Part shown: positions 3,280-19,939 of the stretch, in pieces
How positions within the stretch are numbered: the stretch's first letter is position 1
Layout: each line of letters starts with the position of its first letter
Source of the DNA: Methylobacter sp.
GTDB taxonomy: Bacteria > Pseudomonadota > Gammaproteobacteria > Methylococcales > Methylomonadaceae
Assembly: GCF_004322395.1 (NCBI RefSeq)
Contig: NZ_SCTW01000033.1
Coordinates: forward strand, 1 to 46,121
Direction: 5' to 3'
Length of the DNA: 46,121 nt
The notes under the pieces: generated by a model
Told to the model about the DNA's origin: nothing
Database searches by the model: none
What the model saw: only the letters and a program-made list of their open reading frames with translations
Program-made: the position numbers and the translations under genes

Positions 3280-4832
3280 GCGTTGATATTCCATGCCTGT
3301 AATTGCTGCAATACCGCATCGAAAGTTGATGTGGTAAACGGATAGTCAAGTTTCGGGCGTTTGATGACCAGCAATGGAATGCCCAATGCCTGAGCCGCAG
3401 CTACTTTAGCTTGATAACCGCCTGCATCGCCGGAGTCCTTAGTGATGACGCAATCGATTTTCAAATCCCGCCACAAGGCTTCATTGAAAGCCTGTGAAAA
3501 TGGCCCTTGCATCGCACAAATGCGGCTGCGCGGAACGCCCAGGTCGATGGCTCGTTGGATGAATTCAGGCTCAGGCGTTACCCGCACAAACCATTCGCGT
3601 TTGGCGGCTCCTGGCGCATTGAGAAAGGTAGCCAAGTCCTTGGAGCCGGTAGTCAGGAAAATACGCTGGCCGAGTGTAATGGCCTGCTCGGCTGCCTGTT
3701 CAGTGGAGTCACATTCCACACCGGCATCAGCAACAAAAGAGCTGGGCCTTTCAAAACGCAGATAGGGGATATTCAGACTTTTCGACAAGCCCATCAGTTG
3801 TTCCGATATCAGGCTGGCATAAGGATGCGTCGCGTCAACGATTGCCCGCGCCTGATTTCGGTTTAGCGCCTGTTTTCGCGCTTCAACGCCCTGATGCCCG
3901 GCCCAGATCGACACACCGGAGCAATGTTGGCTTGCAACCTCGCCGCCGTATTCCGTCGCGGCGGATATTACGACCGGATAGCCTCGCCGCGCCAGTTCAT
4001 TAGCCAATGCGTTTCCGTCGCTGGTGCCGGAAAAAATCCATAGCGCATGAACGGGCAGTTCAGGACAACCGCAAGGGATTGCCCCTACGTCGGGGTTATC
4101 CCAGTTATTGTAACCGCGCGGCGTAAAAATAAAGCCGCGTTTACGCTGGGTAAAACGATTGCCGATCACGATCGTGGTTAGCATATCGAACTGCAAAGAC
4201 GGCAGGTCTTCCAGGTGATGGATACTGACTTTCTGGCCCGGACGATAGGCATTATGGATTACGCCGCACAAGGTCTTCGGCGATTTTGATTCGAGCATGA
4301 TATTCAGTATGCGGTACACGCCTTCCTGACGACCGGCGCTCTGCACGTTATACAAAACGCAAGCGAGATCGGCCTGGGCGATATGCCTCCCGCGTTGTTC
4401 AATCCAGTCCCAAGGGCATAGTAAATCGGACAAGCTCAGCGTGGCGAAGTCGTGTGACAACGGCGAGCCCAATAACGAGGCGCAGGCGTTGGCGGAAGTG
4501 ATGCCGGGTATCACGTTGACGTCATAGTCGTCATCTTCGCGCATTTCATCGAAAGCCAGCGCCGCCATCGCATAAATGCCGATATCGCCGCTGGAAATCA
4601 GCGCAACTTTAGCGCGGCTACGGGCTTTTTCAATCGCTAGTAAAGCGCGCTCGCGCTCCTGAGTCAACGGCGGGGTGTGGATTTCCTTGCCGGCTACCCA
4701 CGGCTCAATCCATCGTAAATACAGGTCATAAGCCACGATCACATCGCTATCCCGCAACGCCGCTTCGGCGCGCGGAACGATCAGATCGCTAAATCCCGGC
4801 CCGACCGAAACCAAATTCAATACACCTTTCAT
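3276..4832 (-). CDS. cobJ-cobK: CobJ-CobK fusion: precorrin-3B C17-methyltransferase / precorrin-6A reductase
   Basis: Two corrin-ring enzymes in one chain of 518 residues. Residues about 1-240 are a tetrapyrrole methylase of the CobJ/CbiH type (LVSVGPGFSDLIVPRA, SSGDIGIYAMA, VIPGITSANACAS, VIHNAYRPGQ), which does C17 methylation and ring contraction. Residues about 262-518 are CobK/CbiJ (WIFSGTSDGNALA, VDATHPYA, TTGSKDLA, ITKDSGDAGG), the NADPH-dependent (cobalt-)precorrin-6A reductase. A Gly/Asn/Pro-rich linker joins them. The start is the ATG at 4832; a GTG at 4844 is in frame but less likely. The stop overlaps the cobW start as ATGA. Confidence 0.93.
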   Translation of the reverse strand: MKGVLNLVSVGPGFSDLIVPRAEAALRDSDVIVAYDLYLRWIEPWVAGKEIHTPPLTQERERALLAIEKARSRAKVALISSGDIGIYAMAALAFDEMREDDDYDVNVIPGITSANACASLLGSPLSHDFATLSLSDLLCPWDWIEQRGRHIAQADLACVLYNVQSAGRQEGVYRILNIMLESKSPKTLCGVIHNAYRPGQKVSIHHLEDLPSLQFDMLTTIVIGNRFTQRKRGFIFTPRGYNNWDNPDVGAIPCGCPELPVHALWIFSGTSDGNALANELARRGYPVVISAATEYGGEVASQHCSGVSIWAGHQGVEARKQALNRNQARAIVDATHPYASLISEQLMGLSKSLNIPYLRFERPSSFVADAGVECDSTEQAAEQAITLGQRIFLTTGSKDLATFLNAPGAAKREWFVRVTPEPEFIQRAIDLGVPRSRICAMQGPFSQAFNEALWRDLKIDCVITKDSGDAGGYQAKVAAAQALGIPLLVIKRPKLDYPFTTSTFDAVLQQLQAWNINA

Positions 4833-4972: not shown

Positions 4973-5719
4973 TCACATTAAAGTATCTTCAACGACGGCC
5001 ACAGCCACCCCGTTTAATGTTATTTTGGGTACGATCAATTTGCCGCGGGTGCCGGCAATCAACGCGCAAGGCTCGCATACGCCCGGCAAGCCTACATTCT
5101 GTTGCACCCAGTCCGACGGCTTGGTTACCCAAGGCCGCGCCGCCACTGTTGCGCTTGCCAATATGCGCAACGGCAAATCATGTTGCCCGCAAAATTCCAC
5201 TAAACCCGGTTCGTTTGCCTTTAAATCTATAGTCGCTACTTCGCGCACTTCATTTAACTGCCGCTTGCCCAATGCTTGCTGTACAGCGGCGGTGATTTGT
5301 TCGGCAGCGACGCCTTTGCGGCAACCTATGCCGATAACCAGCGGTTTCAAGGCTTCGGTTGCGGTAGTGATGACCGGTACCGCACCGATTGCATTGGCGA
5401 CGCGGTAAGCCAAACGATTAGCCCCGCCTTCATGCCCAGCCAACAATGAAACCGCAAATCTTCCTGCTTCATCCAGCACCACAACGGCCGGATCGCTATG
5501 TTTGTCTTGCGCCAAACCGTCGAGAAAGCGCACGGCGATGCCGCTGGCGGCTATAATGATCCATTGCGAATGCAGCCGGTAAGCGGCGGCAAACTGTTGT
5601 TTCTGAGCTGTGGCAATATCAAGCCAAGGCCGATACAGCACTCCGCCCAACTGCTCTTGCAGGATTAAAGCCAAGGCTTCGCTTTCTTGCCGTACTAGCC
5701 AGATGCCGCAATCAGCCAT
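4973..5719 (-). CDS. cbiG: Cobalt-precorrin-5A hydrolase CbiG, short form
   Basis: CbiG opens the ring-A lactone and removes the C2 unit of cobalt-precorrin-5A in the early-cobalt (anaerobic-type) route. Seen: an N-terminal CbiG_N domain (ASGIAVRFLDGLAQDKHSDP, VVVLDEAGRF, LLAGHEGGANRLAYRVA, ITTATEA) directly followed by a CbiG_C/CobE domain (IGIGCRKG near residue 130, ATIDLKANEPGL). At 248 residues it is about 100 shorter than enterobacterial CbiG, because the middle segment is absent. It starts at an ATG. A repeat element separates it from the gene before it (cobM) and the gene after it (the cobJ-cobK fusion). Confidence 0.9.
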   Translation of the reverse strand: MADCGIWLVRQESEALALILQEQLGGVLYRPWLDIATAQKQQFAAAYRLHSQWIIIAASGIAVRFLDGLAQDKHSDPAVVVLDEAGRFAVSLLAGHEGGANRLAYRVANAIGAVPVITTATEALKPLVIGIGCRKGVAAEQITAAVQQALGKRQLNEVREVATIDLKANEPGLVEFCGQHDLPLRILASATVAARPWVTKPSDWVQQNVGLPGVCEPCALIAGTRGKLIVPKITLNGVAVAVVEDTLM

Positions 5720-6622: not shown

Positions 6623-6639
6623 TCTAAACCTCTATTGAT

Positions 6640-6777
6640 CCACGAAAAGCACGAAAGACACGAACAAAACGAAATAAATCAGTAAGTCTGTGTTGAATTA
6701 GCCGCACACCCTTTGGATTATGACCAATAATTTGATGTGTTCCTGAAAATTTTCGTGCTTTTCGTGTCTTTCGTGGA
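6640..6777. repeat. Inverted CACGAAA-type 9-bp repeat pair
   Basis: CCACGAAAAGCACGAAAGAC at 6640 onwards and its inverted counterpart TTTTCGTGCTTTTCGTGTCT at 6750 onwards bracket about 80 unique bases between cobI and cobM. The arms are runs of the 9-bp unit seen elsewhere in this operon. Confidence 0.8.
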
Positions 6778-6796
6778 CAAAACGATTTTTCTAAGT

Positions 6797-7531
6797 TCAT
6801 GAATGTCTTCTTTCTCTGGGTGTTTTGCGTATCAATAAAGTGGCGAGATAGCCCATCGCCGAAGTTGCGCATAAATCGCCGACACCGTCGGCCAGCATTT
6901 CGTCTTCCAAGCCGATGCGGCGGGCAAACGCGCAGTGCTCGGCGATGCCCATGTCGCGGAGTAGGGTCAGAACCCAAGGTAGGCGCGGCCCTATCTTCAT
7001 CAGCACGACAATATCATGGCTTTCGATGTCTTGTCGTAATGCACCAGCATCTTCGGGGCAGGGCAGGATCAATGTACGCTCCTTGCCTACGCCCAGCGGC
7101 CAGCCCATAGCTGCGGCCGCAGCCGCGTAGCTGGTAATGCCGGGAAAAGTGCAGTGCGACAAATCCGGCAGATACTCGCGCAAGGCCGCCAATATATAGC
7201 CGTAAGTGGAGTAAGTTAGGCTGTCGCCGATGGTCAGGTAGGCGACGTCAAAGCCTTTGCGTAGATCGGCCGCGATGGTCTCGGCCAATTGGGCGTAATG
7301 CTCGCTCAGTACGGAGCGGTCGGGGTCCATGTTGAATTCGATTTCGCGTATCCGTTGTTGAGCGATGTTAATGTCGGCCAAACATTGCAAGGCCACCGAT
7401 GATTCCGAACTACGCGCGCGGGGCGCATAAATGATGTCGGCCTGCCGCAATGCCTCGACCGCAGCCAGCGGAATATAGCCCGCGGGCCCAGGGCCAACGC
7501 CGATGCCCCAGAATGTACCTAAACGACTCAT
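6797..7531 (-). CDS. cobI: (Cobalt-)precorrin-2 C20-methyltransferase
   Basis: The first ring methylation after precorrin-2 (CobI/CbiL). It has 244 residues. N-terminal FWGIGVGPGPAGYIPLAAVEA, IIYAPR, then IEFNMDPDR, YLTIGDSLTYSTYGY, FPGITSYAAAAAAMGWPL and VLMKIGPRL all match the CobI/CbiL group. The ATG at 7531 is chosen because AGGAG lies about 5 bases upstream (AGGAGCAGC-ATG). The frame remains open 72 bases further, but without family similarity. It is separated from upstream cbiD by a 348-bp gap filled with repeat sequence. Confidence 0.94.
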   Translation of the reverse strand: MSRLGTFWGIGVGPGPAGYIPLAAVEALRQADIIYAPRARSSESSVALQCLADINIAQQRIREIEFNMDPDRSVLSEHYAQLAETIAADLRKGFDVAYLTIGDSLTYSTYGYILAALREYLPDLSHCTFPGITSYAAAAAAMGWPLGVGKERTLILPCPEDAGALRQDIESHDIVVLMKIGPRLPWVLTLLRDMGIAEHCAFARRIGLEDEMLADGVGDLCATSAMGYLATLLIRKTPRERRHS

Positions 7532-7879: not shown

Positions 7880-9010
7880 TTAGGCTTCACCCAAGCTATC
7901 GCCTTGTAAATTAAATAACCGTACTTCAACTTTTTTCACAGCGGGCACTTGAGCATGAACAAGTGCGGCAATACGTTGTTCAATATCTGTCCACAAAGTC
8001 TGTGCACCGGGCTCGTTTCTTAATCTTTCGGTTGCTGCTTCCACGGTGTTCGCTTGTTCCAGTTCCTGTACCAGATGGCTGTCAAGCCCTCGTTCCGCGG
8101 CTATGCGAGCAACGATACGCATCGCCATGTCGCTCTTGCCGGAGTGCGTATCCCATACCCCATCCAGCACTTTGGCAATTTTGCCCGGATGTCCCAACAG
8201 CCACAACACATCCAATTCTCGCTGTTGTTCAGCCAAGGACTGCTGCACAAAGCCGAGCGTATCGCCAAGAAAATTGGCGATCTGCACTGAGCGTTGTTCG
8301 GGCAAACCCAGTGTTTGTTTAGCATAACTGCGGCCGATTTTGCCCGGCAGCAAAGCGATGCTGTTTACGTCGTTGCCCAAAGCGACACGGACATAAACCT
8401 CAATCGAAGCAATCCATGACGCCAGCGACAACGGTTCGACTATGCCTGAAGTGCCGAGTATCGATATGCCGCCGACTATGCCGAGTTTCGGGTTAAAAGT
8501 TTTTTTAGCGATAACCTCGCCGTTGACACAACCTATGGTCAGGTCGAGGCCTTGATCACTATTACCGGCCGCTTCAACAACTGCCTGCCGCATCATCTCG
8601 CGCGGCGTCGGGTTGATTGCAGGTTCCCCTACTGCTACGCGCAAGCCCGGTTGGGTCGTAATGCCGACGCCGGCTCCTGCGAAGAAGCGTATTTTCCCTT
8701 TGTTGTTTTTTCTTACCTCGGCAAAGATGGTTGCTCCGTGCGTGTTATCCGGGTCATCGCCGCCGTCCTTGAGTACCTCGGCTCGAACCGTTTGCTCGTT
8801 TAGCCAACGACAATCCTGAATCGGTACGGTCAGGTAATGCGCATTGTCAGGCAATGTTATTTGCACCTGAATGCGATGTTCACCGTACAACAGCAGGTAG
8901 AGCGCGGCTTTAACTGCCGCCGTAGCGCAGCTTCCTGTAGTGCGTCCGCGCCGTAAACCGTTCGGTGCAAGAACATTGAGATCGAATTCTCTAAGCCCCG
9001 TCTGAGCCAT
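7880..9010 (-). CDS. cbiD: Cobalt-precorrin-5B (C1)-methyltransferase
   Basis: CbiD methylates C1 of cobalt-precorrin-5B and is a marker of the early-cobalt route; the aerobic route uses CobF. It has 376 residues, the normal size. Seen: RRGRTTGSCATAAVKAAL near the N terminus (the CbiD signature), GGDDPDNTHGATI, FAGAGVGITTQPGL, AINPTPREMM, GISILGTSGIVEPLS and a late LLGHPGKIAKVLDG. The ATG at 9010 is chosen; the frame is open to a TTG at 9070 but that part runs into a palindromic repeat. No strong ribosome binding site is visible, so its expression may depend on translation of the genes before it. Confidence 0.95.
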   Translation of the reverse strand: MAQTGLREFDLNVLAPNGLRRGRTTGSCATAAVKAALYLLLYGEHRIQVQITLPDNAHYLTVPIQDCRWLNEQTVRAEVLKDGGDDPDNTHGATIFAEVRKNNKGKIRFFAGAGVGITTQPGLRVAVGEPAINPTPREMMRQAVVEAAGNSDQGLDLTIGCVNGEVIAKKTFNPKLGIVGGISILGTSGIVEPLSLASWIASIEVYVRVALGNDVNSIALLPGKIGRSYAKQTLGLPEQRSVQIANFLGDTLGFVQQSLAEQQRELDVLWLLGHPGKIAKVLDGVWDTHSGKSDMAMRIVARIAAERGLDSHLVQELEQANTVEAATERLRNEPGAQTLWTDIEQRIAALVHAQVPAVKKVEVRLFNLQGDSLGEA

Positions 9011-9030
9011 ACTTTTAGGTCTAAAAGCCC

Positions 9031-9102
9031 TGTAGGGTACGCTGTGCGTACCTCGTTTGCCCTGAGGCAACCGTCATTGAAGTACGCAGAGCGTACCCTA
9101 CA
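9031..9102. repeat. TGTAGGGTACGC inverted repeat
   Basis: TGTAGGGTACGCTGTGCGTA (9031 onwards) is inverted as GTACGCAGAGCGTACCCTAC (9082 onwards), with a 30-bp loop containing a smaller inverted pair (TTTGCCTGAGGCAA). The same element appears at 11489-11550. It fills most of the gap between the cbiX-cbiC fusion and cbiD. Confidence 0.8.
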
Positions 9103-9112
9103 AGGATGACTA

Positions 9113-10675
9113 TCATTCCGTATTTAAGCGATCTGAAAGCTGGTTTACCGCATCGATCATTAACCCATTGACGACCGTTGCCGCCCACGGTGAACCGCCA
9201 CGCGTACCGCTGTTGGTGATGCGCGGCACTTGCAGGCAACGTTTCAACTCAGCCTTGGATTCGCAAGTGCCGACAAAGCCGACCGGTAGCCCGATCACCA
9301 GTTGCGGCCGCCAGCCGTGTTCGCGGATCAAGCGCACCGCTTCCATAATCGCAGTCGGCGCATCGCCTATCGACAACACGATATCGTTACCGAATTTTTC
9401 GAACGCGCGCCGAATGCCTGCTGCGGAACGAGTGATGCCTTGCGTTTGCGCCATCAGCGCCGTCTCGTGATCATGCACCCCGCACCAGGTTTCGATGCCG
9501 AGCTGTTCGAGCAAAGCGCGCTTTAAGCCGGTCTGTACCATAGTTACGTCGGTTACCACGCGCTTGCAGCGGAGCAGCGCACGGATGCCGGTTTCGATCG
9601 CACCTGCCGAGAAATAAATGTCATCGACTGCATTAAAATCGCCGCTGGTATGCACCAGTCGTTGCAACACAGTTAAATGCGCCTCGGGAAAAACCGACCA
9701 GTCGCGCCCTGCATTGATAATGCGGAAACTTTCGGCCTCTATCGGATGCGGCACATAAGGCGCAAATTCCGTTGCGGCTTCTGTTGTTTTCTCGAACAAG
9801 CCGCGCACTTGAAGATGATGAGGGCGTTGCGGCTCGCCGACCTGCTGTTCGAAACCGACGATTTGCACCCGGTATTTGCATAGCGAGCAGTTCATCTCAG
9901 CACGGCCTTCTATCGCTTCTTGCGCCCTGGCGATTAGCACATCGGCCACATTCGGATGTACGCCGAGGTAACCTGATTTAAGCACTTCCAATTCGGGTTC
10001 ACGTTGCTGCAACGCATCGGCCGCGTCATAAATGCGCTTGACCAGTATGCCGTCGAACAGGAAAAACGGCACGACGATCAGTCGCGCATAGCCCAGCTTT
10101 GCAACGGTACGCAAACCGTCGGCGACCAGCGGTTTGGCCGTGCCTGAATAACACACGTAGGACGCGCCAAAGCCCATGCCTTCTTCTATCATCCGCGCGA
10201 ATTTGGCGACTTCGCCATTTGCATCGGGATCGGTGGTGCCGCGGCCGACCAACACTAGGCAAGTGTCGTCGCGGCGCACTGTTTTAGTCGATGTTGCTTC
10301 GGCCTCGACGATGCGCTCTTGCACTACTTGCAGCAATAACGGATGCAAGCCCATCGGCGCGCCGAAATGAAAGTCGATCTCGGGATGTTCGTATGCAAAG
10401 GTCAGCAGCTCGCTGGGCATGTCGTTTTTGGCATGAGTCGCTGCCAGTAAAATGCCGGGCACCATGACCACTTGTTTGGCATCAGCGTTTAGTTGATCTG
10501 CAATCGCCTGATCGATAGTCGGGGCGGCGAATTCCAGATAACCGTGGCTGACCGTATGCTGCGGTGCGCGCTCCTTGACCAGTTCAATCAGTTGCTCGAA
10601 TTCCCGAATGCCGTCGGCATCGCGGCTGCCGTGGCCTGCGATAACGATGCCGAATTGTTGTGTTCCGTCCTGCAT
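9113..10675 (-). CDS. cbiX-cbiC: CbiX-CbiC fusion: sirohydrochlorin cobaltochelatase / (cobalt-)precorrin-8 methylmutase
   Basis: A 520-residue bifunctional protein. Residues 1-260 hold two CbiX-type chelatase halves. The first has likely catalytic histidines H15 (AGHGSRD) and H81 (PGILLAATHAKND); the second has lost the matching His (VGRGTTD). Next comes MNCSLC (261-266), a MxCxxC motif known to hold a [4Fe-4S] centre in the long CbiX of Bacillus megaterium. Residues about 309-520 are CbiC/CobH (PHPIEAESFRII, LVHTSGDF with H342, FSAGAIETG, GDAPTAIMEA, GLPVGFVGTCESK, TNSGTRGGS). It thus joins early cobalt insertion with the late C11-to-C12 methyl shift. Its ATG overlaps the cbiE stop as TGATG. 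Confidence 0.94.
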   Translation of the reverse strand: MQDGTQQFGIVIAGHGSRDADGIREFEQLIELVKERAPQHTVSHGYLEFAAPTIDQAIADQLNADAKQVVMVPGILLAATHAKNDMPSELLTFAYEHPEIDFHFGAPMGLHPLLLQVVQERIVEAEATSTKTVRRDDTCLVLVGRGTTDPDANGEVAKFARMIEEGMGFGASYVCYSGTAKPLVADGLRTVAKLGYARLIVVPFFLFDGILVKRIYDAADALQQREPELEVLKSGYLGVHPNVADVLIARAQEAIEGRAEMNCSLCKYRVQIVGFEQQVGEPQRPHHLQVRGLFEKTTEAATEFAPYVPHPIEAESFRIINAGRDWSVFPEAHLTVLQRLVHTSGDFNAVDDIYFSAGAIETGIRALLRCKRVVTDVTMVQTGLKRALLEQLGIETWCGVHDHETALMAQTQGITRSAAGIRRAFEKFGNDIVLSIGDAPTAIMEAVRLIREHGWRPQLVIGLPVGFVGTCESKAELKRCLQVPRITNSGTRGGSPWAATVVNGLMIDAVNQLSDRLNTE

Positions 10676-11763: not shown

Positions 11764-13656
11764 TCATTTAAGACATCCACGTATCGTAAGAGCCAAGTTT
11801 TCTGCTGACAACTCTTCCAGTGTCAGGCATTCGGCACCTAGGGCTTGCGCGAGTTGCCGGGCACGGCCTAAGCGCAAATAGCCGGTTTCGGTATCGAGCA
11901 CCAGCGCTGGTACACCACATTCTGCAAGTAATCCTGCAAACCTTAGCGACTCCTGCCAAGGGTCGTTGCCATCGTTCAACGCAACATTAGCCTTACCGTC
12001 GCTAAGCAGTACCAGCAACGGAGGCATGGTGGTTTTTTCCAGTGTTTCCAGTGCCACAGACAGCGCATGAGGCAACGGTGTACGGCCGCCTGTAGGCAGT
12101 TCGCGGAGGTTCTGTTCGGCAAGATCGACGCTACGAGTAGGCGACAGTAATAACTGTGCTGATTCGCCGCGAAAGCTGATTACGGCCACTTCATCACGCT
12201 GCTGGTAGGCATCGGTCAACAACGATAAAACCGCACCTTTCACCGCTTCCATGCGCCGTTGCGCAGCCATCGAACCGGAGGCATCGACGACGAACAAGAT
12301 CAGGTTAGCGTTTTTGCCTGAGCGGATTTGTTGGTGTAAGTCGTCTTTTGTCACCTGGAATTCGTTTGAACCGCGAAGTGCCGCGCTACGCAATGTCGCG
12401 CCGACGGCAAGACTGTTTGGGTTCTGGTCCGGCACTGCGCGAACGACGCGGCCGCGTGGTGCATCTTTCGCGGTACTGCGCTTGCCTGCGTTGAAACGTT
12501 TGGAAGCGGTATCCACTTCTAAGCGTCGTACATTATTGGCGGACGCGGCGGCGAAAACCTGTTGCTGGTCTTGTGCTTCACCGTTACTTTCAGAGTTTTC
12601 CTGCCCGGTATATTCATCGCCGGATTCGCTTTCATCAGGCGGCTGCAATGCTTGTTGCATCAGATCGTCAAGTTGCTCCTGATCCAGTCCGGGCTGTTCG
12701 AACGGTTTACGTCTGCGCCGATGCGGTAGCACCAGTTCCGCCGCGCTACGCACATCTTGCGGTGTTACTTGCGACCGGCCGTCGAGCGCCGCCAATGCCC
12801 GCGCCGCTTTATGCATGACGATATCGGCGCGAAGGCTGGCTACTTCGAATTCGCAGCATAAATGACTGATCAAATCGAGCAACGCGTCATCCAGCGTTAC
12901 TTCGGCTAATAACTGCTGCGCTGTTGCGAGTTGATGGCGCAAAGCTTGTTGCTCTTGCATCCAGGCCGCAGCGTAAACCGTAGGATTGGCTTCGAACGCG
13001 ATGCGCCGGCGCACGACTTCGGAACGCATGGCTTTGTCGCGCGGCGCGGTCACTTCGACCATCAGGCCGAAGCGATCCAACAATTGCGGGCGCAAATCGC
13101 CTTCCTCCAGATTCATCGTGCCGATCAGCGTGAAGCGGGCAGGGTGGCTGATCGATAGACCTTCGCGCTGCACGGCATTGACGCCCATCGCCGCGGCATC
13201 CAACAGCACATCGACTAGATGATCGGGGAGCAGGTTGACTTCATCGATATACAGTATGCCCCGGTGCGCCGAAGCCAGCAGGCCGGGCTTGAATACGCGC
13301 TGTCCGCCTTTGAGCGCTTGTTCTAAATCCAGCGTGCCGATAACGCGGTCTTCGGTTGCGCCGAGCGGCAAGGTGACGAAAGGTACGCTGTCCGCTTGCG
13401 CCGTTGCATGTTCGGCATTGCAGGTTTCGCAATGTTGATACGGTGCGCCGGGCAAGCAGTTGTAAGCGCAACCTACAACCCTATCGATCAGCGGCAGGAT
13501 GTCGGTCAGCGCCCGCGCCGCAGTGCTTTTTGCTGTGCCTTTATCGCCGCGTATCAGTACGCCGCCCAGCGACGGATCGACCGCGCATAGTAGCAATGCA
13601 GTCTTGAGCTGGGTTTGTTCGACAATCGCGGAAAAAGGGAAAGTGGCTTGGTTCAT
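11764..13656 (-). CDS. Fused ChlI/ChlD-type AAA+ and VWA protein, partner of CobN
   Basis: Magnesium-chelatase-like ATPase and integrin-I-like subunits in one chain of 630 residues. N-terminal AAA+ domain: Walker A RGDKGTAKST near 36-44, a four-cysteine cluster CAYNCLPGAPYQHCETC, Walker B ILYIDEVNLL, sensor TMNLEEGDLRPQLLDRFGL. An acidic linker (PPDESESGDEYTGQENSES) leads to a VWA domain with MIDAS DASGSMAAQ and TGGRTPLP. Beside cobN, and with no CobS/CobT in sight, it most likely powers cobalt insertion by CobN. No bacteriochlorophyll genes are near to suggest magnesium chelation. The ATG at 13656 is chosen; the 24 codons upstream read through a CACGAAA repeat. Confidence 0.9.
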   Translation of the reverse strand: MNQATFPFSAIVEQTQLKTALLLCAVDPSLGGVLIRGDKGTAKSTAARALTDILPLIDRVVGCAYNCLPGAPYQHCETCNAEHATAQADSVPFVTLPLGATEDRVIGTLDLEQALKGGQRVFKPGLLASAHRGILYIDEVNLLPDHLVDVLLDAAAMGVNAVQREGLSISHPARFTLIGTMNLEEGDLRPQLLDRFGLMVEVTAPRDKAMRSEVVRRRIAFEANPTVYAAAWMQEQQALRHQLATAQQLLAEVTLDDALLDLISHLCCEFEVASLRADIVMHKAARALAALDGRSQVTPQDVRSAAELVLPHRRRRKPFEQPGLDQEQLDDLMQQALQPPDESESGDEYTGQENSESNGEAQDQQQVFAAASANNVRRLEVDTASKRFNAGKRSTAKDAPRGRVVRAVPDQNPNSLAVGATLRSAALRGSNEFQVTKDDLHQQIRSGKNANLILFVVDASGSMAAQRRMEAVKGAVLSLLTDAYQQRDEVAVISFRGESAQLLLSPTRSVDLAEQNLRELPTGGRTPLPHALSVALETLEKTTMPPLLVLLSDGKANVALNDGNDPWQESLRFAGLLAECGVPALVLDTETGYLRLGRARQLAQALGAECLTLEELSAENLALTIRGCLK

Positions 13657-13675
13657 TTTAAAAATGGATATTTGT

Positions 13676-14040
13676 CCACGAAAGGCACGAAAAACACGAA
13701 AGAAATCAATAATGTTGTCTGCAAGCAATTTGACCCTAATATTACGCTCGTTCCCAAGCTCCAGCTTGGGAATGCAGTCTTGGAAGCTCTAGCTTCCTGT
13801 CCGGCACGCGAAGCCAGAGCTTCGTGTACTGGGTTCCCAAGCTGGAGCTTGGGAACCAGCTTAAATGATAAATACTGTTTACAGTTTAAAATTCGGTTTT
13901 TAAATCTCCTCACCCCAGCCCCCTCCAGCAGAAGAGGGCGTTTAGGTGCCAAATTTTGATACATGAGGAATTGATCAAGTTTATTTGGACAGTAATCTGA
14001 GTATTTTCGTGCTTTTCGTGCTTTTCGTGTTTTTCGTGGA
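13676..14040. repeat. Nested repeat block between cobN and the chlI/D-type gene
   Basis: CACGAAA 9-bp arrays in opposite orientation form the ends (13676-13702 and 14004-14040). Inside lie an inverted pair of GTTCCCAAGC..GCTTGGGAA palindromes (13750-13772 and 13833-13856) and, at about 13907-13942, a CTCACCCCAGCCCCCTCC..GAGGGCG piece akin to the element inside cobN. No gene is seen in 13657-14062. Confidence 0.75.
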
Positions 14041-14062
14041 TAAAACAAATTTTCCATAGGCA

Positions 14063-17000
14063 TTATGCCCCGCGCGGTGTTTCGCCGCGCGCCTCCAGCA
14101 GGGTTTCGCTATGCAGGTATAAAGTCTGCAATGCGTCCAGCGTTTGTTGCTTCGGTTCTGCCCACATGCCGCGGCTGGCGGCCTCCAGCAGACGTTCGGC
14201 TATCGCGTTTTGCGCCCAAGGGTTAGCTTGTTCCAGAAAGCGCTGCATTTCCGGGTCCATCGCATAAGTCTCAGCGACTTGTTCGTACATCCAGTCGTCC
14301 ATCACTTGTGCGGTGGCGTCGTAGCCGAATAAATAATCGACGGTCGCGGTCAGTTCCAGTCCGCCTTTGTAGCCGTGACGGCGGATGCTGTCCAGCCATT
14401 TTGGGTTGACGACGCGGGAGCGGAACACACGCAGGGTTTCTTCCTTTAAGTCACGGACTTGCGCTCGCGACGGATCGTGGCTGTCACCGAAATACTTGCG
14501 CGGCTGCTGGCCGGTTAAGGCTCTGATTGTCGCGATCATGCCGCCGTGGAATTGCAGGTAATCGTCGCTGTCGAAAATATCGTGCTCGCGGTTATCCTGG
14601 TTGTGCAATGCGACCTGGACGCCTGACAACCGGGTTCTAAAAGCATCGCGCTGGTCGTTGCCCTGCTGGCTGCGACCGTAGGCATAGCCGCCCCAGTTGA
14701 CGTAGGCTTCGGCGAAATCGGCATCGGCTTGCCAATTTTTTTCCTGAATCAGCGGCAATATGCCCGCGCCGTAACTGCCGGGTTTGGCTCCAAAGATGCG
14801 TAAGGCTGAGCGTTGCGAAGCTTCATCTTCGCTCAGGCCTTTGCCAATCCATTCGCCCAGTTCGGCTAAATAATGCTTGCGGACAAAGTTTTGCGACAGC
14901 GGTTCGTCCAGCGCGATCACGGCGTTGACTGCGTCGTCGATCAGGTCGATCAGTTGCGGGAACGCGTCGCGGAAAAAGCCGCTGATGCGCGTCGTCACAT
15001 CAATGCGCGGGCGTTTCAGTTCCTCCAAAGGAATCACTTCGATTCCGGTCAAACGGCGGTTTTCGTGCTGCCAGACCGGACGCACGCCGAGCAATGCTAA
15101 AATCTGCGCGACGTCATCGCCGTGGGTGCGCATTGCGCTGGTACCCCAGATGCTGATCGCGACGCTCTCGGGGTAATCGCCGGTTTCGCGGACGTAGCGC
15201 GATAAAACTTCATTGGCAAGTTGCTGACCGACTCGCCAGGCTGATTGGGAAGGTACGCTACGCGGATCGACCGAGTAAAAATTGCGTCCGGTCGGCAGGA
15301 TGCTTGCCATGCCGCGTGTCGGCGAGCCGCTAGGGCCGGCCGGGACATAGCCGCCGGACAGGCCGTGCAGCAGGTTATCGATTTCGTCGGTGGCTCGGGC
15401 GAGGTTGGGTGCTAATTCGCGGCAAGCAAAGTTCAGTATGCGTTTTACGGCAGTGAAATCGGCAGGGCTGTTTCCGATTTCACAGATAGCTAGATCTATA
15501 GGTAACACTGTTGGCTTAAGAGCAGGTGCCCCTTCTCCCTGAGGGACAAATCCGCCGGGAGCGGATTTGCACTCGCCCGCAGGGTGGCGGACAGGACAGT
15601 CCGACATGATTAGGCTGGGATGAGGGGATTTAAATAAGTTTTCTTCCTTATTTTGATTTCCCCTCACCCCACCCTCTCCCTCTGGAGAGGGCTTTGTACT
15701 GTATAAGTCGGCTGTACTGATACCAAAGATTCCATTGATGGCTAAGTCTATGGCGGATTCGGCGTAAGCATTCGCCTGTAATTCGCTGAATAATCGTTTG
15801 CATAAGGCTTCGATGGTTTCCAATACATCGGCATGAGTAGGCAAAGGCCGTTCGGCCAGTTTTTCTAGCTCGGCATTTGTTTGATTCAAGCGATGGCCCT
15901 GATGTTCCAGCAGCGAGTCCATGCTCAGGCCGAATAACCGGGCAATTTCAATAGGCAGTCCGGGGATGTCCTGATTCGGCAAGCGGGTCAGCGAGACCAG
16001 CATGTCTGTTAGTTGCTCGTTTTCGGGCGTCTGTCCGAGTATATGCAAACCGTCGCGGATTTGCGCCGCGCCCAGTTCGCACAAGTAGCCGTCCAGATCC
16101 TCAATCAAATGCGCGACATCGGCACCGGCCATTTTGGTCAGCAGTTCGGGCAGCCCGTCTTCGTCGTGATCATGGTCATGCTCGTGATGATGTTCGCCAT
16201 GTTCATGGTGATAATCATGGCCGTGATGCCCATGATCGTGGTCATGATGATCTGCATGGTCATGAGCGTGTTCGTCATAATCCTGATGCCGATGTTCATG
16301 TGCATGGCAGTGCTCATGATGGTGATGGTCGTGCTCATGGCTGTGATCGTGATGTCCATGATGATCATGGTCGTGATGGTCATCGTGATCATGGTCGTGG
16401 TGCAACAGCCGCGCCTGCAAATCGGCGTCCAGGTTGGTTTCTTTGACCAAATCCCAGATTTGTTGTTGCAACAGCGGCAGCTTGGCCGGATCGAGCACTT
16501 CCACTTGGTAATATTCATCGACCAGTTGGGTCAGTTGGGCCAACGCGCCGTAAGTGTCTGCGGTGGTCATCGGTGGCGTCAGGTGATCGACGACGACGGC
16601 ATGAGCGCGGCGCTTGGCCTGCGCGCCTTCGCCGGGATCGTTGATAATAAATGGGTAGAACAACGGCATGTCGCCCAACAGCGCATCGGGGAAACAGTTT
16701 TCCGATAAGCCCACGCCTTTACCCGGCAACCATTCGAGCGTACCGTGCTTACCGACATGCACTATCGCATCGGCCTTCCATTCGTCGCGCAGCCAGCGAT
16801 ACAGCGCATAGTAATGATGAGTGGGTGGTAAGTCGGGCTGGTGGTAGATCGCGTCGGGGTCCATGCCGTAACCGCGCGGCGGCTGCAATGCCACGAAAGT
16901 GTTGCCAAGTTCTATGCCTGCCAGCGCAAGATGATCGTCATGCAAATAAGCCTCGCCGGGTGCGGCTCCCCATTGTGCGGTCATTTTCTGCTGCATCTCG

Positions 17001-18370
17001 ACCGGCAGGTCGTCAAACCATGCTTGGTATTGCGCTGCCGATACGCGGCCAACGGTATTAGCTAGCTGTTCGGTCGTCAGATAGGTATTGTCGTAAGCGC
17101 AACGGTCGATCAGCTCGTGGATTAACGCTGTGCCGCTTTCCGGCAGATTGCCAATGTTGTAACCGGCTATTTGCATGGCTTGCAGAATCCGCATCAGCGA
17201 TGCCGGTGCATCCAAACCGACCGCGTTGCCGATTTGCGAGGCTTTGCTATTGGAGTTCGTGAACACAAAGGCGATGCGCTTATCGACATTGTCCAGGCGT
17301 TTAAGCCGCGCAAAGCGCGAGGCGATTTGGGCGATGCGCGCGACCCTATCCTGCACGGGTTCGTATTCGATCAGTTCATTCGATAGGCCGGAAGCTTTCG
17401 CCTTGAACGATAGCGGCACGGTGATGATGCGGCCGTCGAATTCCGGTAATACGACACTCATCGCTGCATCCAATGGATTCAAGCCGCGCGCCGATTGCTC
17501 CCACTGATGCTGCATCATGCCGCTGGTGATGGCTTGCAGCACCGGTACATCGAGTTGCTCAAGTACATCCACAGACCAACCAGCGGGTGTGGCGCCGCCT
17601 GGAGTGATTTCACCCATCGCAAACGCGGTGGTGTTGATCAGTACGTCGATATGCGCGCCTTGTCCGCTGGTGAAATAGCGTAGCGCTGTAGGAATGGCGT
17701 CATCGCTGCGACCTGCGCGTAACGACGAGGTGAATACGGGCAGCACATTCAATCCGTGTTTTTCCAGCTGTTCAATTAAAGCGTCGACAAAACGCGTGTT
17801 GCCGCTGATCCAATGGGCGCGGTAAAACACAATGCCGATGCTGGCCCGTTCCGGCACTCGCAGAGCAAGCCAGTCGTCTATGCTTGCATCTTGAGATAAA
17901 TCGGGGTGATAAATGCCGTGTTCGGGCAAATCGACAGCCGGTTCAAAGCCAAAACCGGTCAACAGAAAATGATCGGAAAGGTAGCGCAGCAGTTGCGCCA
18001 TATTGAGGCTGCCGCCCGCCTGAAAATAGGCTTGTACCTGATGCAGTACGTCGGATGATACCGTGGATGCGGCGGCTAATTCCGGGTCAGGCTCGCCGGT
18101 GCCGCTGATCGCGATTAAGTGCCGCCCCCGGCAGTGGCGCACTAAGTCGGCAAAGCCGGGCACGCTGCCGAGACGGCCCAGCACGCGCAGCACGATGATA
18201 CGCGCCGAAGCAAGCTGGTGCAGCAACAGCTCGGCCATTTGCGCATCATTTTCCAATGCCTGTAGGTTAACGCCGGTCACCTCCGGAAAACCTTCCGGCA
18301 TTTGCGCCATTGCGCTTTGCAGCACCATCAAGTCGTTGGGCGCATGGGTCAGCAACGCTATATTAGACAT
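14063..18370 (-). CDS. cobN: Cobaltochelatase large subunit CobN with a His-rich insertion
   Basis: CobN is the porphyrin-binding subunit of the ATP-dependent cobaltochelatase, homologous to ChlH/BchH. At 1435 residues it exceeds the roughly 1250-1300 usual for the family. Family segments seen include GIVFYRAHWISGNTRFVDAL (about 180-200), HVGKHGTLEWLPGKGVGLS (about 540-560), GGYVPAGPSGSPTRG, LPTGRNFYSVDPR, ISIWGTSAMRTHGDD and LLEAASRGMW. Two stretches explain the extra length. Residues 657-735 contain 42 histidines with Asp/Glu (16166-16402). Residues about 892-948 are translated from a dispersed repeat (15526-15696). The start is ATG, overlapping the ferredoxin stop by 8 bases. The His-rich part may hold cobalt or another divalent metal (inference). 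Confidence 0.95.
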   Translation of the reverse strand: MSNIALLTHAPNDLMVLQSAMAQMPEGFPEVTGVNLQALENDAQMAELLLHQLASARIIVLRVLGRLGSVPGFADLVRHCRGRHLIAISGTGEPDPELAAASTVSSDVLHQVQAYFQAGGSLNMAQLLRYLSDHFLLTGFGFEPAVDLPEHGIYHPDLSQDASIDDWLALRVPERASIGIVFYRAHWISGNTRFVDALIEQLEKHGLNVLPVFTSSLRAGRSDDAIPTALRYFTSGQGAHIDVLINTTAFAMGEITPGGATPAGWSVDVLEQLDVPVLQAITSGMMQHQWEQSARGLNPLDAAMSVVLPEFDGRIITVPLSFKAKASGLSNELIEYEPVQDRVARIAQIASRFARLKRLDNVDKRIAFVFTNSNSKASQIGNAVGLDAPASLMRILQAMQIAGYNIGNLPESGTALIHELIDRCAYDNTYLTTEQLANTVGRVSAAQYQAWFDDLPVEMQQKMTAQWGAAPGEAYLHDDHLALAGIELGNTFVALQPPRGYGMDPDAIYHQPDLPPTHHYYALYRWLRDEWKADAIVHVGKHGTLEWLPGKGVGLSENCFPDALLGDMPLFYPFIINDPGEGAQAKRRAHAVVVDHLTPPMTTADTYGALAQLTQLVDEYYQVEVLDPAKLPLLQQQIWDLVKETNLDADLQARLLHHDHDHDDHHDHDHHGHHDHSHEHDHHHHEHCHAHEHRHQDYDEHAHDHADHHDHDHGHHGHDYHHEHGEHHHEHDHDHDEDGLPELLTKMAGADVAHLIEDLDGYLCELGAAQIRDGLHILGQTPENEQLTDMLVSLTRLPNQDIPGLPIEIARLFGLSMDSLLEHQGHRLNQTNAELEKLAERPLPTHADVLETIEALCKRLFSELQANAYAESAIDLAINGIFGISTADLYSTKPSPEGEGGVRGNQNKEENLFKSPHPSLIMSDCPVRHPAGECKSAPGGFVPQGEGAPALKPTVLPIDLAICEIGNSPADFTAVKRILNFACRELAPNLARATDEIDNLLHGLSGGYVPAGPSGSPTRGMASILPTGRNFYSVDPRSVPSQSAWRVGQQLANEVLSRYVRETGDYPESVAISIWGTSAMRTHGDDVAQILALLGVRPVWQHENRRLTGIEVIPLEELKRPRIDVTTRISGFFRDAFPQLIDLIDDAVNAVIALDEPLSQNFVRKHYLAELGEWIGKGLSEDEASQRSALRIFGAKPGSYGAGILPLIQEKNWQADADFAEAYVNWGGYAYGRSQQGNDQRDAFRTRLSGVQVALHNQDNREHDIFDSDDYLQFHGGMIATIRALTGQQPRKYFGDSHDPSRAQVRDLKEETLRVFRSRVVNPKWLDSIRRHGYKGGLELTATVDYLFGYDATAQVMDDWMYEQVAETYAMDPEMQRFLEQANPWAQNAIAERLLEAASRGMWAEPKQQTLDALQTLYLHSETLLEARGETPRGA
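15526..15696. repeat. Dispersed CCCTCTCCCT..AGAGGG-type repeat in frame inside cobN
   Basis: About 171 bp bounded by GTGCCCCTTCTCCCTGAGGG and, at 15658-15691, CCCTCACCCCACCCTCTCCC followed by TCTGGAGAGGGC. It also holds the inner hairpin AATCCGCC..GGCGGATT-like (TCCGCCGGGAGCGGA). It has no stop in the cobN frame and adds about 57 residues rich in Pro, Gly, Glu and Ser. A related piece lies at about 13907-13942. Exact ends are by eye. Confidence 0.7.
16166..16402 (-). repeat. His/Asp codon-rich low-complexity tract in cobN
   Basis: Seventy-nine codons (residues 657-735 of CobN) with 42 His plus Asp, Glu, Gly and one Cys. Both CAT and CAC are used and the order is irregular, so it is a selected low-complexity tract rather than a perfect microsatellite. 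Confidence 0.9.
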
Positions 18371-18665
18371 CGCCGGTACCTAAACGGTGGAAAACGTGTT
18401 CGCTTATTTCGGTGCCATGTTCCAGGTGTTCGCTGACAATCCGCTCCAGCACCGCTTCATCCGTACAAGAATACCAAATGCCTTCAGGATAAACGACCAG
18501 GATCGGGCCGTTTTTGCAGACTGCAAAACAGTTTGAGCGGGTACGCTTTATTTTAAGGTGAGGGCGGGCATCGATTTTTTGGCCCAGTCGTTGAAACGCG
18601 TCTGTATTGTTCCCTGAGCATCGTTGGCCTGTACACATCAATACGTGTTTGTCGTGGGTTCTCAT
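18363..18665 (-). CDS. Thioredoxin-like [2Fe-2S] ferredoxin
   Basis: A 100-residue protein of the thioredoxin-like 2Fe-2S ferredoxin family often met beside cobalamin genes. Cysteines C11 and C16 (CTGQRC) and C46 and C50 (CFAVC) are placed as cluster ligands; C67 is extra. NGPILVVYPEGIWY and a late ERIVSEHLEHG are typical of the family. The ATG at 18665 overlaps the cbtA stop (ATGA), and its own stop overlaps the cobN start by 8 bases, so translation is probably coupled on both sides. It may supply electrons for a cobalt or corrin reduction step (inference). Confidence 0.9.
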   Translation of the reverse strand: MRTHDKHVLMCTGQRCSGNNTDAFQRLGQKIDARPHLKIKRTRSNCFAVCKNGPILVVYPEGIWYSCTDEAVLERIVSEHLEHGTEISEHVFHRLGTGDV

Positions 18666-19348
18666 GACTGTTTTTTGTAAAACTGTCCCATCAGACCGCC
18701 GATAGCCAGCCAAAAGACTGCGTTGGCAAGAACGGTGGCGGTTATAAAAGATTGAGCCAATTCTGCTGGTGCAGCACTGCTATGAACTTCCGGCTGCGGC
18801 GCACTGATTAAATGAGGTGCTGCGAGTAACACTGCGCCGAAAAACTTGTTGGTCCTGGTTTTGGCAAAAGCCAGCAGCGATAGGCCGAAGCCGGTATCAA
18901 GCACTGTGATCAGCCACCAATTTTGCCGGTCTGCCAGTTTGGCAGCTGTTGTGCCGGGAACTTCCGGCGGCAATCCCAAAGACGGCGAAACGAAAAAGGT
19001 TATGTAGCCCGCCAGTCCCCACAACAGGCCCATGCGCCAGTTGCCGGGGCGGCCGCGCAAACACATGACTGAACCAATCAACAGGGAAAAACCCACACCC
19101 AGACTGATATTGGCTACTGCGGTAAAAAACGTCCGCTCCCAGCCGTTTTCAGGCTGCCATTCATGGTGTTCGTGACTATTTTCCGCATTGGCAACGACTG
19201 GTGCTGAGGCATTTTCCTCGTACACTTCGGCCCGGAGCAAAGTCGGGATGACTTGAATTTGTTGGATGGCAGTTAATAACAGACCCGCCAGTAAGCCTGT
19301 CCAGAGAGCCGCAACAACAAGCTCTCTGAATGTGGTCAGGTTAAACAT
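18662..19348 (-). CDS. cbtA: Cobalt transporter subunit CbtA
   Basis: An integral membrane protein of 228 residues with about five hydrophobic segments. It is the larger part of the CbtAB cobalt uptake system predicted from B12-riboswitch regulons. Seen: an N-terminal TM with LWTGLLAGLLLTAIQQ, an acidic loop with SHEHHEWQPENGWERT (candidate metal ligands), FVSPSLGLPPEVPGT, and a last TM ANAVFWLAIGGLMGQFY. The ATG at 19348 overlaps the cbtB stop (TAATG); a GTG at 19357 is possible. Confidence 0.92.
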   Translation of the reverse strand: MFNLTTFRELVVAALWTGLLAGLLLTAIQQIQVIPTLLRAEVYEENASAPVVANAENSHEHHEWQPENGWERTFFTAVANISLGVGFSLLIGSVMCLRGRPGNWRMGLLWGLAGYITFFVSPSLGLPPEVPGTTAAKLADRQNWWLITVLDTGFGLSLLAFAKTRTNKFFGAVLLAAPHLISAPQPEVHSSAAPAELAQSFITATVLANAVFWLAIGGLMGQFYKKQS

Positions 19349-19575
19349 TAATGGCACGGAAAGCTGGCGGAATGTCGTCCATCATGAGCAGCGTTATGCA
19401 ATTGTGCAGTATCTGCGAAACCAGCGGCATACAGCAGCGCCAAGCCAAGCATACTAGCCAGCAGTGCGGGTAGGATTCTGTCTGAAATCCCTCTATCTTC
19501 GGCTTCCCCCTTTGATAAAGGAGGATTGAGGGGGATTTTTTGAGCGTTATCAAGTAAAACGGGTGTTGATGGCAT
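19348..19575 (-). CDS. cbtB: Cobalt transporter subunit CbtB with repeat-derived N-terminal insert
   Basis: A 75-residue protein with one TM segment (about 34-52, ILPALLASMLGLALLYAAG) and the CbtB C-terminal metal-binding tail HNAAHDGRHSASFPCH. It is the small partner of CbtA. The start is ATG with AGGAG 7 bases upstream (AGGAGAAAACAC-ATG), the best Shine-Dalgarno of the operon. It is the first gene after the cobalamin riboswitch. Residues 13-30 (KIPLNPPLSKGEAEDRGI) are the translation of a widespread CCCCCTTTGATAAAGGAGG-type repeat. This makes the N-terminal region longer than the family's usual one. Confidence 0.92.
   Translation of the reverse strand: MPSTPVLLDNAQKIPLNPPLSKGEAEDRGISDRILPALLASMLGLALLYAAGFADTAQLHNAAHDGRHSASFPCH
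19493..19542. repeat. NPPLSKG-coding dispersed repeat inside cbtB
   Basis: The sequence CCCCCTTTGATAAAGGAGGA followed by TTGAGGGGGATTTTTT, preceded by TCTATCTTCGGCTT, is the well-known type of bacterial repeat that reads LNPPLSKG when translated. It sits in frame within codons 12-30 of cbtB. Confidence 0.75.
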
Positions 19576-19720
19576 GTGTTTTCTCCTGAGTAAAGAGACA
19601 GCAAAACCAGTAACGGATAATGTTACCAGTGGAAATAATCTGTACGGGGAAGAAAAGCAGGACGGACGCGAAGGAGAGCAATCCATCTGAGCGCCCTCCG
19701 CGCACAAATTTGATTATCGC

Positions 19721-19893
19721 TTCAGGCCGGTCTCCGGGCTCACGAGTTGAAAGCAATGCTTGAGCTTCCAAGGTTAGCGCCTTCCCATGCATGGCACAGT
19801 GGCGGTTGCAAACCTTTTACTTGTTTACCGTTGCGGGGGCAGCGTGGGCTTTGTTTGCATCTTAAGCGAACTTACCTACTTCCCGTTTCAATT
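19721..19893 (-). promoter_or_regulatory. Cobalamin (B12) riboswitch
   Basis: Read on the minus strand, all core elements appear in order: GCTGCCCCCGCAACGGTA (19826-19843), GCCACTG (19797-19803), GGGAAGG (19780-19786) and the 3' box AGCCCGGAGACCGGCCTGAA (19721-19740). The aptamer ends about 145 bases before the cbtB start. No clear U-tract terminator follows, so translational control through the cbtB ribosome binding site or a longer refolding region is possible. It should repress the transport and synthesis operon when adenosylcobalamin is plentiful. Confidence 0.95.
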
Positions 19894-19939
19894 CTGCGGA
19901 CGATAGTCCATGAATACCTAAAGCAAATTGTACGAACCT

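Follow-up and report, generated by a model that had tools for sequence, protein, structure and literature searches.

Delivery of Co(II) to the cobaltochelatase CobNST runs against an unfavourable gradient, which CobW would overcome by GTP hydrolysis (PMC7895991, PMC10206600). CobW is thought to take up Co(II) with MgGTP via thiols that are likely those of a CxCC motif (PMC7895991, PMC10206600), and all COG0523 proteins are said to keep this motif (PMC2770081, PMC7895991). For early cobalt insertion, no chaperone is reportedly required (PMC10206600). These statements, and those of the next paragraph, follow excerpts of the papers cited.

The class II chelatase CbiX-L carries a C-terminal His-rich region, for which storage or delivery of metal has been proposed (PMC7689651, PMC5816740), and whose removal leaves cobalt insertion unaffected (PMC7689651). 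The idea that a His-rich region of a chelatase is a metal store is therefore already published for CbiX-L. The heme de-chelatase HmuS, which has a CobN-superfamily body, contains a long, disordered and length-variable Met-rich insertion in domain IV (residues 780-898; PMC12583661). In genomes without UreE, a His stretch on the GTPase UreG has been proposed to compensate for the missing metal carrier (PMC2770081).

In the locus described here, a His-rich tract lies inside CobN itself and the CobW-like GTPase of the same operon lacks CxCC. The tract is a long-maintained, position-fixed, composition-conserved and disordered insert of one CobN lineage. The window, that is the whole stretch of DNA analysed, comprises 46,121 nucleotides of a Methylobacter sp. 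contig (NZ_SCTW01000033.1). The excerpts seen of the open-licence literature on CobN and on His-rich regions of cobaltochelatases (PMC4070679, PMC7689651, PMC2770081, PMC4542158, PMC5816740, PMC7895991) contain no description of a His tract inside CobN, and those on CxCC-less CobW contain none of a CobW lineage without the motif.

An operon with an early and a late cobaltochelatase

The features of the operon that bear on cobalt and its insertion are the following.

19708 to 19936, minus strand: cobalamin riboswitch ahead of cbtB-cbtA-cobN (RF00174, 101.2 bits)
19348 to 19707, minus strand: cbtB, probable cobalt transporter subunit (PF09489, 64.3 bits)
18662 to 19357, minus strand: cbtA, probable cobalt transporter subunit (PF09490, 173.5 bits)
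18363 to 18713, minus strand: small Cys-containing protein between cbtA and cobN (no Pfam match)
14063 to 18370, minus strand: cobN, class I cobaltochelatase large subunit, 1435 aa (TIGR02257, PF02514, phmmer, Foldseek)
11764 to 13728, minus strand: fused ChlI-ChlD-type ATPase/VWA subunit, putative cobaltochelatase partner (TIGR02442, 801.6 bits, cut-off 779.45)
9113 to 10675, minus strand: CbiX-CbiC fusion, a class II (early) chelatase with MxCxxC joined to precorrin-8X methylmutase (PF01903, PF02570)
7880 to 9070, minus strand: CbiD (TIGR00312, 387 bits, cut-off 200)
4973 to 5719, minus strand: CbiG, N- and C-terminal parts (PF11760, PF01890; NF005440, 409.7 bits, over its cut-off)

The complete gene order, cbtB-cbtA-small protein-cobN-chlID-cbiE-cbiX/C-cbiD-cobI-cobM-cbiG-cobJ/K-cobW-cobB, is common to those lineage members from the Gamma- and Betaproteobacteria whose loci are long enough to show it. 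The small Cys-containing protein, which we take to be ferredoxin-like, has a homologue in each of the 17 His-lineage loci that were counted. Two open reading frames on the minus strand (13653-14063 and 6624-6977) resemble dispersed intergenic repeats of the PRKTRKARK and VPKLQLGN types, and a 9-bp array (14004-14038) lies inside the first of them.

CobN reaches 1287.3 bits with TIGR02257, well over the curated cut-off of 822.05, and the original prediction of an otherwise normal chelatase subunit is borne out by this score. The protein scores 1398.4 bits with PF02514 and 1057.9 bits with 7c6o in phmmer. Its homology to the CobN-type class I cobaltochelatases (CobNST and CobN-ChlID; TIGR02257; 7c6o, 9uk9) extends over the full length, and the fold is the same. 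The active-site His-Gly motif KHG (aa 541-543) is invariant in 25 aligned rows; the His-Gly motif of HmuS contains an essential His, according to an excerpt of PMC12583661.

A single riboswitch-led operon encodes two cobaltochelatases, CbiX of class II (early) and CobN-ChlID of class I (late), an arrangement conserved across the Methylococcaceae and Betaproteobacteria. The operon is an early-insertion gene set adjoining a late-type chelatase. Among 28 distinct CbiX-CbiC fusions, the two catalytic-His motifs of the N-terminal half are present in 28 and 27 proteins, respectively, and MxCxxC in 27. None of the 28 has a C-terminal His-rich tail, the maximum being seven His in 30 residues. CobG was found over its cut-off in none of 37 genomes; matches under the cut-off, such as 561-residue frames at about 110 bits, are presumably sulfite or nitrite reductases.

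The role of CobN is uncertain because the operon encodes CbiX, CbiG and CbiD, because no CobG scores over its cut-off and because early insertion is reportedly chaperone-free. Possible roles of the enzyme in this lineage are late cobalt insertion as a second route, the repair of corrinoids that lack metal, and action on another metal or tetrapyrrole. For the same reason, the presence of the early chelatase CbiX in the operon, the earlier suggestion that the tract concentrates cobalt where it is used rests on an assumption.

The histidine-rich tract of CobN

CobN contains two inserts.

16166 to 16402, minus strand: His-rich tract, aa 657-735 (42 of 79 residues are His; low-confidence coil in the model)
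15500 to 15715, minus strand: second insert, aa about 886-957, a dispersed genomic repeat in frame, not His-rich (genome matches)

The tract had been predicted to span 79 residues with 42 His, and both its extent and its count are exact to the base. It also contains 17 Asp, 7 Glu and 4 Gly, and the other 1356 residues of CobN contain 39 His. Given the His rate of the remaining protein, the binomial probability of 42 or more His in 79 residues is 3e-43, and the richest 79-residue window in 2000 shuffles of the whole of CobN had 17 His, which rules out a chance origin. The His codons are mixed (27 CAT, 15 CAC) and Tandem Repeats Finder reports only rows of 64-86% matches, on which grounds a simple tandem repeat was rejected. 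Independent assemblies, including those of the named isolates Methylobacter tundripaludum SV96, Methylovulum psychrotolerans Sph1 and Herbaspirillum strains, contain similar tracts, which makes an assembly artefact unlikely. A Met/Val-rich open reading frame of 231 residues on the plus strand (16013-16708) results from reading the strand opposite to the tract and is most probably not a gene. His-rich metal-binding tracts are found in HypB, SlyD and Hpn, with which the CobN tract is compared by composition.

An AlphaFold2 model of CobN residues 236-1435 was computed from an alignment of 25 rows (mean pLDDT 73, pTM 0.74). Fragment residues 418-515 (aa 653-750) and 653-735 (aa 888-970) have a pLDDT below 50 and, except for a few residues at the edges, no secondary structure. 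A Foldseek search with the model returned 7c6o, the CobN of M. tuberculosis, first (E 2.7e-78), followed by ChlH and HmuS. The TM-scores are 0.55-0.62 with an rmsd near 13 Å, so the placement of domains in the model is loose. Whether the tract loops out had been left to such a model, and as modelled it is a disordered loop that leaves the chain between two helices of the class I chelatase fold. At this site 7c6o has a connector of only ~10 residues (aligned residues 672 and 682), whereas the Methylobacter CobN has the tract.

The second insert matches 26 places in its own genome, itself included. Several relatives carry a different repeat-like insert (SRTAERFSLHSHAERGN type) at this site, and others have little or nothing there. 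As a dispersed repeat that is variable or absent in relatives, it was rejected as a part of any mechanism. Counted from an alignment of CobN residue 990 with HmuS residue 928, the Met-rich insertion of HmuS would correspond to about aa 860-960, the second insert site and not the tract. HmuS further differs in using Met instead of His and in catalysing the opposite reaction; the tract of the window contains no Met.

CobN-like matches were found in 59 of 201 Methylococcaceae-level genomes, some being repeat-insert hits or distant paralogues only. Identical proteins being counted once, 34 distinct CobNs of the lineage were collected from Methylococcaceae-level and other genomes, and six more from Burkholderiales; a partial CobN without the region (L081) and all distant paralogues were left out. 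A His-rich insert with 10-52 His is present at the same junction in 40 of the 40, which belong to Methylococcaceae, Herbaspirillum, Duganella and other Betaproteobacteria. The junction lies between the end of the NLDxDL helix and the DG(Y)LCE segment, and the insert has 21-102 residues in the 34 proteins; the six additional Burkholderiales CobNs have 21-45 His in the tract. Far from being absent in close relatives, which include contigs of M. tundripaludum SV96 and of other Methylobacter, the tract is thus conserved in position and composition in all lineage CobNs read, but not in sequence. Among 300 Burkholderiales genomes, 13 have a CobN at E ≤ 1e-100, of which eight carry the tract (11-45 His) and five are canonical (1-2 His).

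For comparison, 60 control loci were taken from Pseudomonadota, mainly from the top of a ranked listing (134 of 398 genomes with a match) and not as a random draw, and the His count of a connector is that of the richest 30-residue window in the 130 residues preceding the anchor. No connector with more than three His per 30 residues was found in the 46 of 60 loci that could be read. Of the 14 loci without the anchor, 13 have at most four His in any 30 residues and one, L267, has ten. L267 is a distant CobN-like reading frame with an apparent signal peptide and a His/Glu/Asp-rich insert of DEHS repeats (residues about 768-805), which a four-row alignment places after the tract site and near the second insert site; it is possibly an independent gain. 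Cyanobacterial connectors have 0-2 His (27 of 29 loci readable). The actinobacterial and Dialister CobNs lack a tract, and the search of their surroundings yielded no CobW.

A quick, midpoint-rooted tree was computed from 86 of 137 CobN rows, with the controls halved and the six added Burkholderiales CobNs outside. The tract-bearing CobNs form one clade in it (33 rows, SH-aLRT 100). The nearest row is from Obscuribacterales (L085, two His in a 59-residue connector) and the next from Ktedonobacter (L110, three His, DHGDHTHEW at the tract junction). The whole operon was likely transferred between Gamma- and Betaproteobacteria.

The His run is broken by a recurring basic linker, LKPxIxKPLxxGxxxFK, in a set of Methylococcaceae tracts (L043-L046, L050, L051, L082), and by a K-rich YRP/FRP linker in some from Burkholderiales (L283, L285-L288). 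These linkers might be docking motifs.

Close pairs of CobNs differ more in the tract than in its flanks, both by gaps and by non-synonymous changes; between the window and genome G042, 16 of 65 tract codons differ non-synonymously compared to 29 of 380 flank codons. The pooled tracts (1899 residues) nevertheless consist of 46% His, 19% Asp, 7% Glu and 5.5% Gly. In 12 pairs, 73 replacements involve His, and the other residue is Asp in 28, Glu in 16, Gly in 10, Asn in 5, Tyr in 1, and Arg or Pro in none. Arg and Tyr are one transition away from His yet are nearly absent among the replacements, and the composition therefore looks selected. The order of residues in the tract, like its length, is free.

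The tract could also have grown nearly neutrally, by low-complexity expansion, from a short ancestral stretch of His and Asp in a loop that tolerates inserts. The short DHGDHTHEW stretch of Ktedonobacter, the free variation in length among the 34 proteins and the tolerance of another CobN site for random repeat inserts are all consistent with such an origin. However, all 40 proteins, from Gamma- and Betaproteobacteria alike, retain the His fraction, the replacements are biased to Asp and Glu and against Arg and Tyr, and drift at the second site looks different, the inserts there being unrelated or absent. A near-neutral origin is improbable and, by a narrow margin, the least probable of the explanations considered here.

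A CobW-like GTPase without CxCC

The CobW-like protein of the operon, called operon CobW below, has the following features.

2173 to 3294, minus strand: CobW-like G3E GTPase without CxCC (PF02492, 140.3 bits; TIGR02475, 188.3 bits)
3070 to 3084, minus strand: GLIAY, aa 71-75, at the canonical GC(I/L/M)CC place (alignments)
2467 to 2535, minus strand: conserved His motif, aa 254-276, HAHSGLAGHSHGLATHKHFHEQD (His columns 97% conserved in 33 distinct proteins)

Like the COG0523 cobalt chaperone CobW, as described in excerpts of PMC7895991 and PMC2770081, the protein has the G3E GTPase motifs, a place in a B12 operon and a C-terminal His motif. It differs in that the canonical GCICC at the switch-region site is replaced by GLIAY, and its TIGR02475 score is under the curated CobW cut-off of 332.1 bits. 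Walker A, NEFG, ETSG and NKxD are retained; among 33 distinct operon CobWs, conservation is 100% for Walker A, ETSG and the N column, and 97% for K and D. The C-terminal motif has seven His. Such a protein was detected in 33 of 35 His-tract genomes, the exceptions being G006, where the operon reaches the end of its contig, and G192, which is 80% complete.

CxCC is present at the switch site in none of 39 distinct lineage CobWs (the 33 and six from Burkholderiales), whereas all 56 CobWs beside control CobNs have GCxCC (a CobW is present in 56 of the 60 control loci). In another locus set, 29 of 30 CobWs from non-lineage loci have GCxCC; the exception, L111, reads X there. Within the Burkholderiales, the motif is missing in six of six newly read His-tract genomes and kept in five of five canonical ones. 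The CobWs without CxCC form one clade with a support of 100/100 (39 rows, Obscuribacterales included). Since the Obscuribacterales sister shares the loss and has only two His in its CobN connector, parsimony suggests that CxCC was lost before the tract arose or together with it.

At least one further match to the operon CobW is encoded in 21 of the 33 His-lineage genomes that have this protein, and the genome of the window also encodes a GCLCC protein, so that a conventional chaperone may act in trans. In nine of ten His-lineage genomes, however, no second PF02492 match above 100 bits was found in a frame of 300-400 residues, a result that takes only length and score into account.

The operon CobW has at most eight His per 30 residues, within the range of 3-19 for control CobWs of the 60-locus set, and the idea that a His stretch moved from CobW to CobN was rejected on this count. 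Long His runs do occur in Rhodobacteraceae CobWs, in a locus set fetched partly with the tract-derived pattern HHDHDHDD. The only difference in CobW that stands between the lineage and the controls is CxCC.

The conserved His motif of the operon CobW also bears on the possibility that the tract is a docking surface, which would bind this GTPase, CbiX-CbiC or the ChlID motor by metal bridges or electrostatically and might pass cobalt to CbiX instead of CobN. The CbiX-CbiC fusions, which have the catalytic-His motifs and MxCxxC but no His-rich tail of their own, would suit this arrangement, as would the basic and Pro-containing linkers that recur inside several tracts. Low-complexity divergence would, however, be unusual for a specific interface, and the interaction is a candidate one proposed from sequence. 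Docking is regarded as improbable.

The tract and a possible capture of cobalt

The tract might also be a general buffer or store, which would sequester excess Co, Ni or Zn brought in by CbtAB, without any dedicated hand-over to the chelatase site. Its composition is metal-generic, its length and order are very variable, and CbtAB is encoded in the same riboswitch-led operon; the deletion of the His region of CbiX-L without effect on cobalt insertion fits as well. On the other hand, a pure buffer would have no need of attachment to CobN, yet all 40 proteins carry the tract on the chelatase and at the same junction. Furthermore, the tract coincides with the loss of CxCC from CobW. A buffer is considered unlikely, although less so than docking.

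The explanation that ranks first, at somewhat under an even chance, is that the tract is a flexible, length-tolerant metal-capture arm tethered to CobN, which has assumed a part of the cobalt acquisition of CobW. The arm would loosely bind divalent ions of several kinds, not only Co but unavoidably Ni and Zn too, and would raise the local metal concentration at the chelatase, taking over a part of the capture step that is done elsewhere by CobW. The operon CobW, with its intact GTPase and its conserved C-terminal His motif, would then be a nucleotide-driven hand-over or gating factor and not the primary cobalt binder. The position and composition of the tract, its disorder in the model, the operon context and the loss of CxCC are observed; metal binding, the preference for cobalt, hand-over and the compensation for CobW are all inferred steps. 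Of the probability that the capture arm leaves, the largest share goes to the buffer, then come docking and near-neutral expansion, with a small rest for readings not listed here.

Several lines of evidence point to a capture arm. The insert sits at one junction in all 40 proteins and the control connectors are His-poor; composition is kept under sequence drift, with His replaced mostly by Asp, Glu or Gly; and the tract is modelled as a low-confidence coil between helices of a CobN fold whose KHG motif is invariant. CxCC is lacking in all 39 lineage CobWs and present in all 56 of the controls. The cobalamin riboswitch, CbtAB and the conserved operon provide a cobalt context, and there are precedents in the His-rich region of CbiX-L and in the His stretch of UreG where UreE is missing. 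The precedents are not exact. CbiX-L, like the lineage CobN, is a cobaltochelatase of the B12 pathway with a His-rich region, but it belongs to an unrelated enzyme class and its region is a tail, whereas the CobN tract is an internal loop and the CbiX of the operon has no such tail. The UreG stretch is on the GTPase, whereas that of the lineage is on the client enzyme.

Other observations argue against the arm. The loss of CxCC and the tract are each confined to one clade, so that their association may be a single coincidence, and the Obscuribacterales sister indicates that the loss does not require a tract. The additional matches to the operon CobW and the GCLCC protein of the genome leave room for a chaperone in trans, and the eight His per 30 residues of the operon CobW do not mark it as the donor of the stretch. 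The actinobacterial and Dialister CobNs have neither a tract nor a CobW detected nearby. The CbiX, CbiG and CbiD set makes the role of CobN itself uncertain, and gaps and non-synonymous changes are commoner in the tract than in its flanks.

A stronger form of the capture-arm reading is that of a self-loading class I cobaltochelatase, in which acquisition has shifted from the thiolate switch site of CobW to the His arm of CobN, and the operon CobW drives or gates the hand-over without a CxCC-bound metal. This is a tentative proposal and probably goes too far. If it were true, then together with the Met-rich insert of HmuS and the apparently independent His-rich insert of L267 it would make the class I body a platform that has repeatedly gained ligand-rich disordered arms.

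How Co(II) reaches CobNST against its gradient is an active question, to which the answer so far is CobW with GTP hydrolysis (PMC10206600). The lineage offers a natural test case of whether tethering can raise the effective cobalt supply enough to stand in for a chaperone, or to work with one, and its CobW would be a COG0523 protein in which nature has separated the GTPase function from metal binding at CxCC. The His arm, next to a CobW without the known metal-binding motif, suggests that in methane-eating and related bacteria the capture of cobalt may have moved onto CobN itself.
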